A stretch of DNA of 64,000 nt, from positions 1 through 64,000 of the forward strand of contig JAICSS010000004.1 of the NCBI GenBank assembly GCA_025936755.1. Direction: 5' to 3'. The notes under the pieces were generated by a model. That model worked only from the letters and a program-made list of their open reading frames with translations. It had not been told where the DNA came from and did not search any database. The first letter of the stretch is position 1. Each line of letters starts with the position of its first letter. This document shows, one piece after another, positions 20,808 through 26,122 of this stretch. The translations under genes were made by a program, and so were the position numbers. The stretch is from Solirubrobacterales bacterium. GTDB lineage: Bacteria > Actinomycetota > Thermoleophilia > Solirubrobacterales > 70-9.

Positions 20808-21547
20808 GCCGGACGGCGCGCCAGCACGAGGACGGCGCTGGGCCGGCCCCAGGTAAGGCCGAGGCGCTCGATTCGCACCGCCGCCGCCAGGAAGGGGAAG
20901 GCGAGCAGGCGGACCGGCAGCGGCGCCCCTTTGATCCGGTCGCGGATCTCCTGCGCGGCCGCGGCAAGGCTGCGGTAGGTGGGCCGCAGCTCGAGCGGCT
21001 CGAGCCCGGCCGCCTCGACGTTGGCGGCGATCTCCTCGCGGCCGTAGCCGTGCCGCACCTCCTCGCGCCAGATCCCGGTGCTGCCCGGAAGCACCGGCGA
21101 CCAGTCCTTTTCGGGGACCTGCAGCGCAAGCAGCCCGCCCGGCGCCAGCGCCCCCGCCAGATTTCGCAGCGCCGCCTTATCGTCGGGGATCTCATGCAGG
21201 CACTCGAGCGCGACGACGGCGTCGAAGCCGGGCTCCGGCAGCGGCTGGGTGAGGTCGGCCGCCTGGAAGCCGACGTTGCCGAGCGCGCGGCCGGCCGCGC
21301 GCTCGCGGGCGCCGCCGAGCAGATCGGCCCGCTGGTCGACTCCGAGCAGAGCCCAGTCACCGTGCCGGCGGGCAAGGGAGAGGGTCAGCAGCCCGTCGCC
21401 GCAGCCGGCGTCGAGGACGCGCAGGGGCCCTCCTCCCGCCTCGCCGGAAAGCACCTCATCGGCCAGGGCCAGGCGCAACCGCCGCGACGGCGCCATCAAC
21501 GCCAGCCGCTCCTCGAGGATCGCCCGCAGCTTGCCGAGGAAGCTCAC
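20795..21547 (-). CDS. SAM-dependent methyltransferase (class I)
   Basis: 250 residues from GTG 21547 (SFLGKLRAILEERL); an upstream extension to 21718 reads over the opposite gene and is rejected. Motif I is VLDAGCGDGLLTL, followed by the acidic ribose-binding VDQ, FDAVVALECLHEIPDD and LAPGGLLALQVPEKDW. The fold is that of small-molecule or glycan methyltransferases. In this setting it probably methylates a sugar or caps the chain end, which is inference. It is divergent from the deacetylase at 21637. Confidence 0.8.
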   Translation of the reverse strand: MSFLGKLRAILEERLALMAPSRRLRLALADEVLSGEAGGGPLRVLDAGCGDGLLTLSLARRHGDWALLGVDQRADLLGGARERAAGRALGNVGFQAADLTQPLPEPGFDAVVALECLHEIPDDKAALRNLAGALAPGGLLALQVPEKDWSPVLPGSTGIWREEVRHGYGREEIAANVEAAGLEPLELRPTYRSLAAAAQEIRDRIKGAPLPVRLLAFPFLAAAVRIERLGLTWGRPSAVLVLARRPAQST

Positions 21548-21636
21548 CGTCCCATCATTTCCCACCCGGCGGCGGCGCTTCCGGCTTTCGGCACACCCGG
21601 CTGTGTAGAGAATCGGATGCGCTTGGAGGGATGGGC

Positions 21637-22548
21637 ATGAGCCAGGGCTGGTGCGAGGCGCCGTGGCGGACGCGGCTCCTGCGGCGAGCGCGGGTGCCGG
21701 CGGCGCTCCTGGCGCCATTGGCCGGGCTCTCGCCCCGCTGGGCCGAGCTCCGGGACGACCTCACCCACTGGGCTGGGGTGCGGAAGGAGGCGAGCGCCGC
21801 GGAGTGGCGGCGGGCGACGAGCTCCTACGCGGTCCTCGTCTACCACCGCTTCGCCGGCGAGCTGAAGCCGGGGCAGGAGCGGATCGACATCGCCCCGCGC
21901 CGGTTCCGCCGCCAGCTGCGCCTGCTGCGGGCGCTCGGGTTCCGGCCGCTGCCCCTGGACGAGCTGCTCGCCTTCCACCGCGGCGAGCTGAACGCGCTGC
22001 CCCGCCGCCGCTTCGCGATCACCGTCGACGACGCGATCGCCGACGCGGTCGAGCCGCTGCGAGAGGCCGCCTCCCTCTCCCCCCAGCTCTTCGTCCCCAC
22101 CGCCGAGCTCGGCGGCAGCGCCCACTGGATCGACGGCGAGCCGGTGGCCGGCTGGGAGGAGGTCCGCGCCCTCGCCGCCGCCGGCGTCGCGATCGGCTCC
22201 CACACCCGCCACCACCGGCGCCTCAGCCAGCTCGGCGCCGCCGAGCGCGATGTCGAGCTGGTGGGGTCGCTAGCCGAGCTGCGCGAGCAGGTACCGGGCG
22301 CCAGCGCCGTGATCGCCTACCCGAACGGCGACCACGACGACGCCGTCTGCGGCGCCGCCGCCGCCGCCGGCTACGAGGCCGCCTTCACCACCGAGAAGGG
22401 CCGCAACGACGCCGCCACCGACCGCTACCGGCTCCGCCGCGTCAGCGTCCACGGCGCCGACGGCGCCCTCGCCGTCCTCTGGAAGGTCCTTACCGGCGAG
22501 GCGCTGCCCGCCTGGTGGCCGCGGCGCTCTCGTTCAAAGAGCCGCTAG
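21637..22548 (+). CDS. Polysaccharide deacetylase (NodB/CE4 family)
   Basis: 303 residues. GGAGGG at 21625-21630 lies 6 bases before ATG 21637 and touches ATG 21631, so 21637 is preferred. Motifs: YAVLVYHRFAGE, FAITVDDAIADAV (the TFDD position reads TVDD), GSHTRHHRRLSQL with the metal His pair, and AYPNGDHDDAV. There is no obvious signal peptide. It is the second CE4 enzyme of the locus, distinct from the one fused to a glycosyltransferase at 18283. Confidence 0.82.
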   Translation: MSQGWCEAPWRTRLLRRARVPAALLAPLAGLSPRWAELRDDLTHWAGVRKEASAAEWRRATSSYAVLVYHRFAGELKPGQERIDIAPRRFRRQLRLLRALGFRPLPLDELLAFHRGELNALPRRRFAITVDDAIADAVEPLREAASLSPQLFVPTAELGGSAHWIDGEPVAGWEEVRALAAAGVAIGSHTRHHRRLSQLGAAERDVELVGSLAELREQVPGASAVIAYPNGDHDDAVCGAAAAAGYEAAFTTEKGRNDAATDRYRLRRVSVHGADGALAVLWKVLTGEALPAWWPRRSRSKSR

Positions 22549-22573
22549 CCCGTCCCGCCTTCGCTCAATAACA

Positions 22574-22592
22574 GTCCAGTATTTCATTGGAC
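22574..22592. promoter_or_regulatory. Inverted repeat in the leader of the PixA-like pair
   Basis: GTCCA (22574-22578) and TGGAC (22588-22592) are separated by nine AT-rich bases. It lies in the only AT-rich stretch between the deacetylase stop and the first small gene, so it may be an operator near a promoter. No clear -35/-10 pair can be assigned. Confidence 0.35.
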
Positions 22593-22609
22593 CTAGAGTG
22601 CTGGGGCCT

Positions 22610-22629
22610 GCGGAGCCGATCGGCTCCGC
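22610..22629. promoter_or_regulatory. Perfect 20-base palindrome upstream of the small secreted-like gene
   Basis: GCGGAGCC, GATC, GGCTCCGC reads identically on both strands. It can fold as an 8-bp stem with a 4-base loop and is followed by CTTTCC. It is 61 bases after the deacetylase stop and 23 bases before ATG 22652, so it may be a terminator for the former, an operator, or an mRNA-stabilising 5' hairpin for the latter. Confidence 0.5.
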
Positions 22630-22651
22630 CTTTCCACCGAAAGGAATGCGA

Positions 22652-23062
22652 ATGCCAATCCAACCTGAAGAATGCGAAGTGTTCATTCAGATCTGGGTCG
22701 ATGTGAATGAGGTCACCGAAACCGGCGGCACCAAGGGCGTGTACCTCGTCGATAACCGGATCTCCTCCGGCAGTGAAAACGAGGGCACCACGGGCCTCCT
22801 CACCGCCTGCGCTAAGAGCAGCAAGGTCTGCTGGAGCATCAACCAGATCGATCCAAACGCCCAGCCGGTCCAGTTCGAAATCAGCGAAATCGGAAACTCA
22901 CCTGCCTGGGGCGCCACCGGTCAGCCGGAGGCGGTTGACCAGGGGAAGAAGACGACGTTCACGGGAGTCGTGGAAATAGCCGGGTCGAATTCCTACCCGT
23001 TGAAGATCAACGTCGACGACGTCGGCGTCCCCCTTCAGCCAAGCGTTTCCGTATCTGACTGA
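22652..23062 (+). CDS. Small PixA/AidA-like protein, copy 1
   Basis: 136 residues. AAAGGA at 22640-22645 lies 6 bases before ATG 22652, so this start is preferred to ATG 22646 or the longer frame. The chain alternates short hydrophobic and polar strands (FIQIWVDVNEV, GVYLVDN, VCWSINQID) and ends in strands, as expected for a beta-sandwich. It shares with the next gene the pattern VDVxxV...GxYxxDNRxSxGSxxEGTxxLxTxC...VxWxxxxxD. This layout resembles the PixA/AidA inclusion-body protein family, whose biochemical role is unknown. No signal peptide. Base composition is less GC-rich than its neighbours. Confidence 0.5.
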   Translation: MPIQPEECEVFIQIWVDVNEVTETGGTKGVYLVDNRISSGSENEGTTGLLTACAKSSKVCWSINQIDPNAQPVQFEISEIGNSPAWGATGQPEAVDQGKKTTFTGVVEIAGSNSYPLKINVDDVGVPLQPSVSVSD

Positions 23063-23089
23063 CTGAAAAGACTCTAGGAGGAAGGCACG

Positions 23090-23608
23090 ATGAACGAACA
23101 AGCACAGGTTGCCGAGATGTCGGGCAACGGCGCGACGGAGCATGCCGCCTCGGTGAGCGAGGCGAAATTTCAGATGCCGGAGACGAGGCCGATGACTCAG
23201 ATCGCAATTGCCATCGACGTCGACTATGTCGTCGGTCGCGGTGGCGGTTTCGTGAATGAGGGTATCTACATGATGGACAACCGCGCCAGCGAGGGCAGCA
23301 CCGGCGAGGGAACCTTGGAGCTATCCACCGTCTGTCCGGTGAATCATTGCGTCGGGTGGACCGTCTACCCCGTCGATCAGGAAGGAAAGGAGGAAGACTC
23401 GGTCACGATCACCGGCTTCATCGTCACCGCCGGGAGCGTCTTCGGCTCCGAGGGGAGACCGGAACCCTATATGGGCAATATGGCTTATTGGGTAGGTGAA
23501 GCAATGAACGCGGGGAGCCAGACCTATCACGTCCGCATTCTGGCGAAGAGCGGTCGAAGGCATCGGGCAGTCAACGTCGAATTCGACCCGTACATAACGG
23601 CGAGGTAA
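23090..23608 (+). CDS. Small PixA/AidA-like protein, copy 2
   Basis: 172 residues with a strong ribosome site (AGGAGG at 23076-23081). After a polar N-terminal extension (1-35), the domain reads QIAIAIDVDYVV, GIYMMDNRAS, STVCPVNHCVGWTVYPVD, then SVTITGFIVTAGSVFG and a final VNVEFDPYITAR. The I-D start, the W in the middle and the terminal DPYI are features I associate with the PixA/AidA family (inclusion-body proteins of Xenorhabdus and relatives). It is 27 bases after copy 1, so the pair forms an operon. It ends before a shared hairpin terminator. Function is not known. Confidence 0.5.
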   Translation: MNEQAQVAEMSGNGATEHAASVSEAKFQMPETRPMTQIAIAIDVDYVVGRGGGFVNEGIYMMDNRASEGSTGEGTLELSTVCPVNHCVGWTVYPVDQEGKEEDSVTITGFIVTAGSVFGSEGRPEPYMGNMAYWVGEAMNAGSQTYHVRILAKSGRRHRAVNVEFDPYITAR

Positions 23609-23621
23609 CCGTTCGTCGGCA

Positions 23622-23652
23622 GGGGTCGGTGACAGGCGACGTCACCGACCCC
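23622..23652. terminator. Bidirectional hairpin between convergent genes
   Basis: GGGGTCGGTGAC (23622-23633) and its exact complement (23641-23652) form a 12-bp stem with a 7-base loop. It lies between the PixA-like gene and the end of the GT4-kinase gene, whose stop codon is inside the right arm. No T-run follows on either strand. Confidence 0.65.
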
Positions 23653-26122
23653 GAAGCAGCTCCTCCTCGACCAGCCCTAGAAAAGTCGACTGTCGGAGCT
23701 CCTCGACTGAGGGCCGGCCTGGAGACTCGAGCCGGAGGTGGCGGTAGTCGCTGCGGCTGTGGACGATCCAACAGAGGAGGCGGAGGAGGCGAAAGTCCCC
23801 CGCAGGGATGCCGAGGGCGGCGGTGTACTCGGCGATCGCCCGGGCGGCGACGGCGCCGTGCGAGGTCGCGGGGTCGAGCAGCTGGGCGTAGGTCTCGCGG
23901 GTGCGCCCGCTCTCCAGGGCCCCGTCGAGGACGAAGGCGCAGTTGGCGAGGAAGTAGACGAGGTCGAGCCCCGGCAGACCCTCGGGCTCGGCTGACTCCC
24001 AGTCGAGCAGGACCGGCTCGCCCGAAGGCGTCAACAGGACGTTCCAGGGGGAGCAGTCGCGGTGCTCGACCACCGGGGGCAGATCCCCGAGGCCGTCGAG
24101 CAGGGACCGAACGCATCTGTCCTCGAGCAGGGCGCCGAAGTGGACATCGAACCACTCCAGCGGCTCGCCGACCAGGCGCGAGCGCCAGTTGGGGTCGGGG
24201 TCGCGCCGGGGGCTGCGGGCGAGCTCGACCAGGAGGCGGGTCACCCGCATCGCCACCTCTTCGAAATTGGCAGCGGTGAGAGAGTCGAGCAGGGACTCCC
24301 CGGCGATCGCCTCCTGGACGACGGCGAGGCGGCCGTCCCGGGAGCCCTGGCCGACCAGGCGGGGGATGCCCGCGAGGTCCGGCCGCTCCTCCCCGAGCCT
24401 GCGCAGCACCGCCGCCTCGCGCTCCAGGCCCGGCTCGGCCTCGGCCACGCGGGCGAATTTCACCGCCTTCGCCGGCTTCTCCGCCCCGCCCTCGAAGGCG
24501 AGGCCGACGGCCTTGTTGATGCTGCGGTGGCCGGTGGTCAGCAGCAGCAGGTGACAGTCGGGCGAGAGCGGGATCGCGCCCTCGTCGCCTCCCGCCCTGC
24601 GGCGGCCGACGACGTAGATCGGGGCGAGCAGGCCCGCGGCCCGCACGGTGCACCAGAGGTGGCGCAGGAGCCCCGCGACGAACGAGCGCGGCGCCCGTGT
24701 CGCCAGCAGGTAGTCGGTCGCCTCCTCGATTTCGACCGGCAGCCAGAACTGGGGCTGACGGTGCGGCAGCGGCCCCGCCCAGTAGGCGCGCACGTCGGCG
24801 TAGCCGGCGGCCTCGGCCTTGCGCCTGGCGCGCCCGATGCCCCCGGGCCGCGGCAGCCGCCAATGCGCGAGCAGCTCCGCGTCCGGCAGCAGGAAGCGCC
24901 AGTCGAGCTGCCGCACCAGCGGATTCCGCCGCGACTCCGGCATCCCCTCGAGGGTGTGGTTGAGCTTTGACGCGCTATCCACGCCAAAGCTCGACCACAC
25001 CCTGTCGGAGGAACCCAGCAGCTCCCGGTAAACGGCGGTGACGCGGTTTGCCATCTGCCCACGGGTGAGACCGGCCTCGACCCGCTCGCGGGCTCGGGCG
25101 GCCAGGCTCTGCCGCAGCTCCTCGTCGCCGAGGACGCGGCGCAGCGCCGCCGCCAGCGACTTCGCGTCGCCGGGAGGAACCAGCAATCCGCTGCGGCCGT
25201 CTTCGATCAGCTCTTCGGTGCCGCCGATCGCCGAGGAGACGATCGGGATCCCGGCCGCCATCGCCTCCAGCACCGCCAGCGAGGAGCCCTCGTACAGCGA
25301 GGGCAGGGCGAAGACGTCGCAGGCGGCGAGGAGTTGCGGCACGTCCTCGCGGCGGCCGAGGAAGCGGACGCGGTCCGCCACCCCCAGCCGCTCGGCCTCG
25401 GCTTCCAGGCCGGCGCGCTCGGAGCCCTCGCCGGCGAGGAGGAAGAGCGCGTCGGGCACCTCGGCGACCGCCTCGAGCAGGACCCGGTGCCCCTTCTGCG
25501 GGTTCAGCCGCGCCGGGGTGAGGACCAGCGGGCGGCTCGGGCCGCCGCCGAGCTGCTCGCGCAGCCCCGGCGGAGTGGCGACGGCCGCTCGCTCGCTGTC
25601 GACGGCGTTGTAGACGACCTCGACCTTCTCCGCCGGCCAGCCGAGCTTCCCGGTCAGCTCCGCGGCGATCTCGCGCGAGACCGCGAGGTAGCGGTCCACC
25701 CCCCGCGCCAGCGCCCGCAGCTGCCAGTAGGCCGAGCGGTCGGGCGGCTCGTAGGAGCCGACCTGGACCGTCCCCAGCACCGCCGGCACCCGCGCCAGCA
25801 CCGCCGCCGCCAGGCCCCACTTGCAGGCGACCGGGGAGCTCATGTGGGCGTGGAAGACCCGCGGTCGCTCGCGCCGCAGCAGGCGGGCCAGCGCCGGCAC
25901 CCGCCGCGCCCCGGTCAGCCCCAGCGGCAGCGGCGCGACCAGCCGCACCGGCACCTCCAGCGCCGCCGCGCGCTCGCGCAGCGGCTCGGTCTCCGGCACG
26001 TCCTCGAGCAGCAGGGTCGGCGCCCACTCGTCGCGGTCGAGCGAGGCGAGCAGCATGAACATCGCGTTCTCGGCCCCGCCGAGAACGCGGCTATCGGTGT
26101 AGAAGAAGATCGATCGGGCCAC
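23642..26122 (-). CDS. Fusion of family 4 glycosyltransferase and aminoglycoside-phosphotransferase-like kinase
   Basis: 826 residues. Residues 1-370 are a GT4 enzyme (IFFYTDSRVLGGAENAMF, LVLTPARLNPQKGHRVL, PSLYEGSSLAVLEAMAAGIP). A linker domain (about 390-535) of unknown type follows. Residues about 540-815 resemble the APH/choline-kinase fold: VEHRDCSPWNVLL carries the catalytic H687-x-D689 and N694, and VLLDWESA gives the metal Asp at 707. The kinase could phosphorylate a sugar or lipid-linked glycan, by analogy with other APH-fold sugar kinases. Last gene of the eight-gene minus-strand operon; it overlaps the gene before it by 32 bases. Confidence 0.8.
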   Translation of the reverse strand: MARSIFFYTDSRVLGGAENAMFMLLASLDRDEWAPTLLLEDVPETEPLRERAAALEVPVRLVAPLPLGLTGARRVPALARLLRRERPRVFHAHMSSPVACKWGLAAAVLARVPAVLGTVQVGSYEPPDRSAYWQLRALARGVDRYLAVSREIAAELTGKLGWPAEKVEVVYNAVDSERAAVATPPGLREQLGGGPSRPLVLTPARLNPQKGHRVLLEAVAEVPDALFLLAGEGSERAGLEAEAERLGVADRVRFLGRREDVPQLLAACDVFALPSLYEGSSLAVLEAMAAGIPIVSSAIGGTEELIEDGRSGLLVPPGDAKSLAAALRRVLGDEELRQSLAARARERVEAGLTRGQMANRVTAVYRELLGSSDRVWSSFGVDSASKLNHTLEGMPESRRNPLVRQLDWRFLLPDAELLAHWRLPRPGGIGRARRKAEAAGYADVRAYWAGPLPHRQPQFWLPVEIEEATDYLLATRAPRSFVAGLLRHLWCTVRAAGLLAPIYVVGRRRAGGDEGAIPLSPDCHLLLLTTGHRSINKAVGLAFEGGAEKPAKAVKFARVAEAEPGLEREAAVLRRLGEERPDLAGIPRLVGQGSRDGRLAVVQEAIAGESLLDSLTAANFEEVAMRVTRLLVELARSPRRDPDPNWRSRLVGEPLEWFDVHFGALLEDRCVRSLLDGLGDLPPVVEHRDCSPWNVLLTPSGEPVLLDWESAEPEGLPGLDLVYFLANCAFVLDGALESGRTRETYAQLLDPATSHGAVAARAIAEYTAALGIPAGDFRLLRLLCWIVHSRSDYRHLRLESPGRPSVEELRQSTFLGLVEEELLRGR

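Follow-up and report, generated by a model that had tools for sequence, protein, structure and literature searches.

A putative horizontally acquired two-subtype cassette of PixA/MakCD-like proteins in a Solirubrobacterales bacterium

Two adjacent genes, orf1 and orf2, in the window analysed here (a stretch of 64,000 nucleotides of one Solirubrobacterales contig) almost certainly encode members of the PixA/MakCD superfamily, and the profile matches make MakCD the nearest named family for both. The two proteins represent two subtypes that, judging from alignments and a tree, are co-inherited across distant phyla, and the cassette that they form was probably acquired horizontally. The superfamily itself was already known; what is new is the two-subtype cassette and its distribution.

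The gene pair and its superfamily

A first-pass annotation of this DNA had described two small paralogues with common motifs, and these were recovered as two plus-strand ORFs sharing 36 of 114 aligned residues (32%, E 4e-13), a degree of paralogy well above chance. The motifs are DNRISSGSENEGT in one protein and DNRASEGSTGEGT in the other, with VCW and VGW both there, and the cysteine said to occupy the same position does so (C53 and C82 align, each after an L-x-T motif), although it is not invariant in the alignment of the wider family. The strong ribosome site reported for the second gene is likewise present. The ATG at 22652 as the start of orf1 is backed by the start of a homologue, and orf2 starts with the ATG at 23090 (Table 1). 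Neither protein has an evident signal peptide or an enzyme domain, and neither found a match in PHROGs or PADLOC.

Table 1. Features of the cassette, its leader and flanks, and coordinates of the giant-protein loci adjoining the cassette in two other genomes
Feature	Position	Strand	Remarks
orf1	22652-23062	+	136 aa, pI 4.2; putative type 1 subunit of a MakCD/PixA-like cassette
orf2	23090-23608	+	172 aa, pI 4.8; putative type 2 subunit; about 30 low-confidence N-terminal residues, then predicted PixA/MakCD beta-sandwich, then C-terminal DPYITA motif
orf2 ribosome site AGGAGG	23076-23081	+	read from the sequence
Inverted repeat GTCCA-N9-TGGAC	22574-22592		leader
Perfect 20-bp palindrome GCGGAGCCGATCGGCTCCGC	22610-22629		leader; as RNA, 8-bp stem and 4-nt loop
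Hairpin CCTTTC-cacc-GAAAGG	22629-22644	+	overlaps orf1 ribosome site; absent from the first-pass annotation
Hairpin, 12-bp arms	23622-23652		after orf2; overlaps 3' end of convergent glycosyltransferase gene; absent from the first-pass annotation
Segment of deacetylase gene and pair	21548-23641		the genes on either side overlap by ATGA in G001, a sister genome
Giant-protein locus, G138	L007:11005-15502 with L053:1-15498
Giant-protein locus, Janthinobacterium violaceinigrum	L008:10002-14689 with L052:187-12524

It had been proposed that the pair resembles PixA and AidA, with a search by the PixA profile PF12306 as a check. No Pfam family matched either protein; PF12306 gave no match at E-values up to 10, and neither protein reached its gathering cut-off of 21 bits. 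Both matched the NCBIfam MakCD model NF049870 over the domain (orf1 with 49.2 bits, E 5e-13; orf2 with 58.1 bits, E 8.7e-16), at scores below the 110-bit cut-off of the curated subfamily; by this profile evidence they are related to MakCD and lie outside its curated subfamily. MakC (8rqy) and MakD (6tct) were matched weakly in the PDB by phmmer, and a profile of 16 sequences matched the same MakC chain with an E-value of 1.8e-14 and MakD with 2.9e-12. Every one of the 16 aligned family members is matched by the MakCD profile, and four orf2-type relatives, 35-46% identical to orf2 in that alignment, reach the PF12306 cut-off of 21 bits (L008, 29.2 bits; L009, 26.9; L010, 22.1; L011, 22.2). Thus, the family joins PixA and MakCD at the sequence level. 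Matches of orf2 to endo-polygalacturonase entries in the PDB (E 0.07-0.4) were rejected as chance, because they span the junction with the disordered N-terminus and were gone once the profile was used.

AlphaFold2, run on orf2 with a 16-row alignment, returned a model with a mean pLDDT of 85.5 and a pTM of 0.75, in which 118 residues have a pLDDT of at least 90 and residues 1-30 are of low confidence; an earlier run with four sequences (pLDDT 48.6) was set aside. The five top distinct structures found for this model with Foldseek and VIA-align are all of the PixA/Mak type, with Z-scores from 11.7 to 16.0: PixA itself (4lzk; Foldseek E 1.7e-8, VIA Z 16.0 over 134 residues at 2.7 A), MakD (6tct, Z 14.6), MakC (8rqy, 14.1), 4q52 (13.1) and 4pib (11.7). 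The structure 4lzk represents PF12306 (PMC9060813), and the published DALI neighbours of MakC and MakD are 4lzk, 4q52 and 4pib (PMC11484084). A search of viral folds gave weak, generic Ig-like matches only. The model predicts for orf2 the PixA beta-sandwich that the first-pass annotation had anticipated, which is also the fold of MakC and MakD, and orf1 would share it because it is homologous to orf2. The combination that had been named as telling against a PixA/AidA relationship, a missing profile match together with an unrelated fold, was not what was found. The resemblance holds for the fold and, by way of intermediate sequences, for homology, and fails only as a direct match to PF12306.

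Two subtypes in distant phyla

Scanning a set of 85k species with orf2 alone returned nothing, and relatives were found with a four-row alignment. The collection scan matched Janthinobacterium violaceinigrum, an Epibacterium sp., an Acidobacteriota MAG and a Bacteroidetes MAG, each carrying a tandem triplet that runs type 1, type 2, type 3, the last of these being type 2-like. A genome of the same order and another family, G138, carries an orthologous pair (53% identity for orf1 and 53% for orf2) whose genes overlap at ATGA, and the cassette is found in three more Oxalobacteraceae, in one of which only the C-terminal half of type 1 is detectable. Types 1 and 2 occur together in the window, in G138, in the four genomes of the collection scan and in two further Oxalobacteraceae. 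Five genomes were searched whole for the family, and each has one cassette and no other copies. The distribution is patchy: of 201 relatives, 2 have a match, and in a phylum sample of 396 genomes the window's own is the only one. PF12306 searches of the class gave no match, but as their controls were also without one, they are no evidence of absence. Nothing matching the cassette was found among plasmids, phages and viral contigs, and a phage or plasmid carrier is not indicated.

In the tree, type 1 proteins form one clade (support 99/98) and types 2 and 3 another (93/87), while the single Mak-like genes of other Oxalobacteraceae remain apart. This separation indicates that the duplication is older than the spread across these phyla. 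Furthermore, pairing is a recurrent feature of the superfamily, since makD-makC (PMC11484084) and bnr1-aidA (PMC9060813) are two-gene units as well. The term undescribed, applied to the pair in the first-pass annotation, overstates the case for the family, though neither the cassette with its two subtypes nor its spread was found in the literature searched.

Compared to MakC and MakD of Vibrio cholerae, which have been described as lacking close relatives and as tied to that species (PMC11484084), the window proteins are alike in sequence profile, fold, size and arrangement as two adjacent paralogues, and have the GS-x-x-EG and CW motifs in common with them. However, the identity between MakC and MakD is 48%, against 32% for orf1 and orf2, which belong to deeply separate subtypes; besides scoring below the MakCD cut-off, the pair differs in having no recognised makABE-type genes nearby. 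The likeness to PixA, AidA and Bnr1 (PF12306; 4lzk, 4pib) lies in the best fold match, in the orf2-type relatives that pass PF12306 and in the two-gene arrangement shared with bnr1-aidA. In contrast, orf1 and orf2 are shorter than those proteins and do not match PF12306.

Insertion site and leader

The GC content of orf1 (0.584) and orf2 (0.593) is lower than that of the window (0.702) and, as had been noticed at first reading, than that of the adjacent genes (0.77 and 0.74). In the sister genome G001, the stop of a homologue of the kinase-like (APH) domain overlaps the start of the methyltransferase gene, whereas the corresponding genes of the window are 2.1 kb apart, with the deacetylase gene and the pair between them on the other strand. 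Being GC-poor and sitting between genes that overlap in a sister species, the cassette looks acquired. The comparison has a thin basis, a single short contig from one sister genome; it points to an insertion or rearrangement of the segment, and near synteny bearing on acquisition comes from only two genomes beyond the set of the window's relatives. The deacetylase gene has a host-like GC content and may have a history separate from that of the pair. No long direct repeats were found at the insertion ends. The gene at 23642-26122 encodes a fusion protein in which a GT4 glycosyltransferase is followed by a kinase-like domain at the C-terminus (HRDCSPWNVLLTPSG...LLDWE; by eye, this domain is APH-like), and it has a close match in G001 for its C-terminal half only.

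Both the inverted repeat and the perfect palindrome that had been reported for the leader are present. First-order Markov simulations yield about 0.3 perfect palindromes with arms of at least 10 per 64 kb, and the leader palindrome is unique in the genome with 2 mismatches allowed; two more with such arms are found in the window, at 21280 and 48278, so that rarity alone proves little. The one at 21280-21305, CGAGCGCGCGGCCGGCCGCGCGCTCG, is within the methyltransferase gene and, at 26 bp, is longer than that of the leader. The leader palindrome may be the end of the upstream deacetylase transcript, a leader structure or an operator. As RNA, the leader folds better than shuffled sequences (z -2.8), and hairpins lie on both sides of the cassette, the one downstream of orf2 being terminator-like without a T run (fold z -2.6). 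An Rfam search of the leader found no riboswitch and no known RNA, and scans for sigma-70 promoters and T-run terminators found none.

Genomic neighbours and possible function

Elsewhere, the cassette lies next to truA, surE and an IclR regulator (G138), to a pfkB kinase and a uronate-type gene set (Epibacterium), to a LexA gene (Acidobacteriota MAG), or to trehalose-phosphate synthase and DUF2721 genes (Oxalobacteraceae). No Mak-type tripartite toxin was recognised among the annotated or scanned neighbours, which comprise part of the flanking genes, and the window locus is not an operon with genes of a tripartite alpha-pore-forming toxin. Ahead of the triplet in the Bacteroidetes MAG (L011:2768-9054) are a PatG-like subtilase, a maturation protease of the cyanobactin type, and an 87-aa Cys-rich peptide with the sequence GINPSAC, resembling GINPSSC at the start of the type 1 protein. 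In Janthinobacterium, a divergent gene some 0.5 kb upstream of the triplet encodes a Pvc16_N protein (PF14065, contractile injection system; L008:7546-8118).

The only repeated neighbour of the cassette is what looks like an undescribed giant-protein locus. In G138 and Janthinobacterium, the cassette directly adjoins genes for a protein of about 410 aa, a protein of about 1100 aa, a nuclease and a LysM protein of 3700-4200 aa. The ~1100-aa proteins are 33-37% identical and have no Pfam or PDB match, the nuclease is HNH-like by eye in G138 and matches PF03372 in Janthinobacterium, and the LysM giants share a segment of 37% identity (E 1e-140). A 1081-aa query did not find the locus in the window's genome. 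The ~1100-aa and giant proteins also occur as a pair, without a PixA/MakCD cassette, on plasmids of five genera (L058, Nostoc carneum; L059, Tistrella; L060, Lysinibacillus; L061, Azospirillum; L062, Embleya), and three of these genera (Nostoc, Tistrella and Embleya) encode proteins of 1100-2000 aa that differ in their N-terminal regions and have the ~410-aa protein as their C-terminal part. G908, a Janthinobacterium-related genome, encodes a 1226-aa protein distantly related to the ~1100-aa protein (L051:8281-11961), at a long distance from the only Mak-like gene of that genome.

MakC and MakD are found in the cytosol, are not secreted and crystallise as dimers; when both are lost, MakB and MakE decrease and MakA secretion is impaired (PMC11484084). 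Bnr1 is a dimer in solution with a negative surface and has been proposed to be a DNA mimic (PMC9060813). We lean towards reading orf1 and orf2 as a two-subunit cassette, gained by horizontal transfer, whose products are acidic accessory proteins that form dimers in the cytosol. Both proteins would be cytosolic, as the missing signal peptides and the location of MakC and MakD suggest, and they would dimerise through the sheet used by MakC, MakD and Bnr1, preferentially as a type 1/type 2 heterodimer. Rather than acting as enzymes, they would bind other proteins in an accessory or regulatory role, of the kind suggested for MakC/MakD and Bnr1; net charge and a pI of 4-5, found in nearly all family members, fit protein-binding or DNA-mimic ideas, but such pI values are common. 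The leader hairpins would probably shield the cassette from the transcript of the deacetylase gene and may also modulate translation of orf1, and the glycan locus would be the site of insertion rather than the pathway served.

The alternatives draw on parts of the same evidence. A storage or inclusion-body role resembling that of Xenorhabdus PixA, with abundant synthesis late in growth and packing into the cytoplasm, would fit the PixA fold of the orf2 model, the four relatives that pass PF12306, the strong ribosome site and the 5.2% methionine of orf2. This reading is nonetheless unlikely: methionine is at 0.7% in orf1 and 1-3% in most relatives, the GC-poor cassette is rare and patchy, and the phenotypes of AidA and Bnr1 are regulatory or virulence-type, not storage (PMC9060813). 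It is decidedly improbable that the cassette belongs to the giant-protein locus as an accessory or cargo module, orphaned in the window's genome, since its direct adjacency to the same set of genes in G138 and Janthinobacterium has to be set against the absence of that locus from the other cassette genomes searched and, with the 1081-aa query, from the window's own, and against the five plasmids that carry the locus without a cassette. Still less probable is an accessory role of the pair in the surrounding glycan locus, whether surface-linked, as the first-pass annotation had thought possible, or polymer-modifying. The neighbours in the window are truly glycosyltransferases, deacetylases and a Wzm/Wzt-type exporter, and a glycosyltransferase gene on the opposite strand bounds the pair; yet the proteins have neither signal peptide nor enzyme domain, the same cassette adjoins unrelated genes elsewhere, and both GC content and sister synteny mark an insertion. 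Since nearly every site brings the cassette different neighbours, its position among glycan genes is probably incidental.

A fold comparison raises a further alternative. After the PixA/Mak structures, the next-best matches to the orf2 model are those of SO1698 of Shewanella oneidensis (3n55 and the 3nj- series), titled as an aspartic peptidase (Z 7.7-9.4 over 110 residues), which has an Asp-Pro near the same C-terminal place but is 6-9% identical in sequence and has no profile link. By analogy, type 2 proteins might cleave themselves at the Asp-Pro of a C-terminal [WF]DP[FY]xTA motif (D166-P167 in orf2), with D63 as the catalytic aspartate. The SO1698 entries include the mutants D116A, P117A and D37A, and, going by the entry titles, the protein would be cut at this Asp-Pro bond. 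The aligned ranges end at residue 172 of the model and 122 of the chain, which would put 116-117 on or beside D166-P167; D63 is invariant in the 16 members, and the DP is retained in type 2 and mostly lost in type 3. However, the residue match comes from range ends only and could be off by one or more, a Z of 8-9 may reflect merely a common arrangement, and MakD has SP at that place and crystallised intact. We give such self-cleavage a very slim chance, and a slimmer one to the fuller scheme in which the cassettes are a mobile, toxin-free two-subunit module whose type 2 protein, by cutting itself at the C-terminal Asp-Pro, would switch the heterodimer. If true, self-cleavage of type 2 would be the first biochemical activity for the PixA/MakCD superfamily.

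For the window, orf1 and orf2 should not be read as glycan synthesis genes. Work on PixA/AidA and on MakC/MakD, virulence-linked proteins of unknown function, has so far been separate, and the presence of a two-subtype unit in soil and environmental bacteria, with no Mak-type toxin recognised among the neighbours scanned, argues for a general cellular role, for which the cassettes offer small, tractable pairs in a search for partners.
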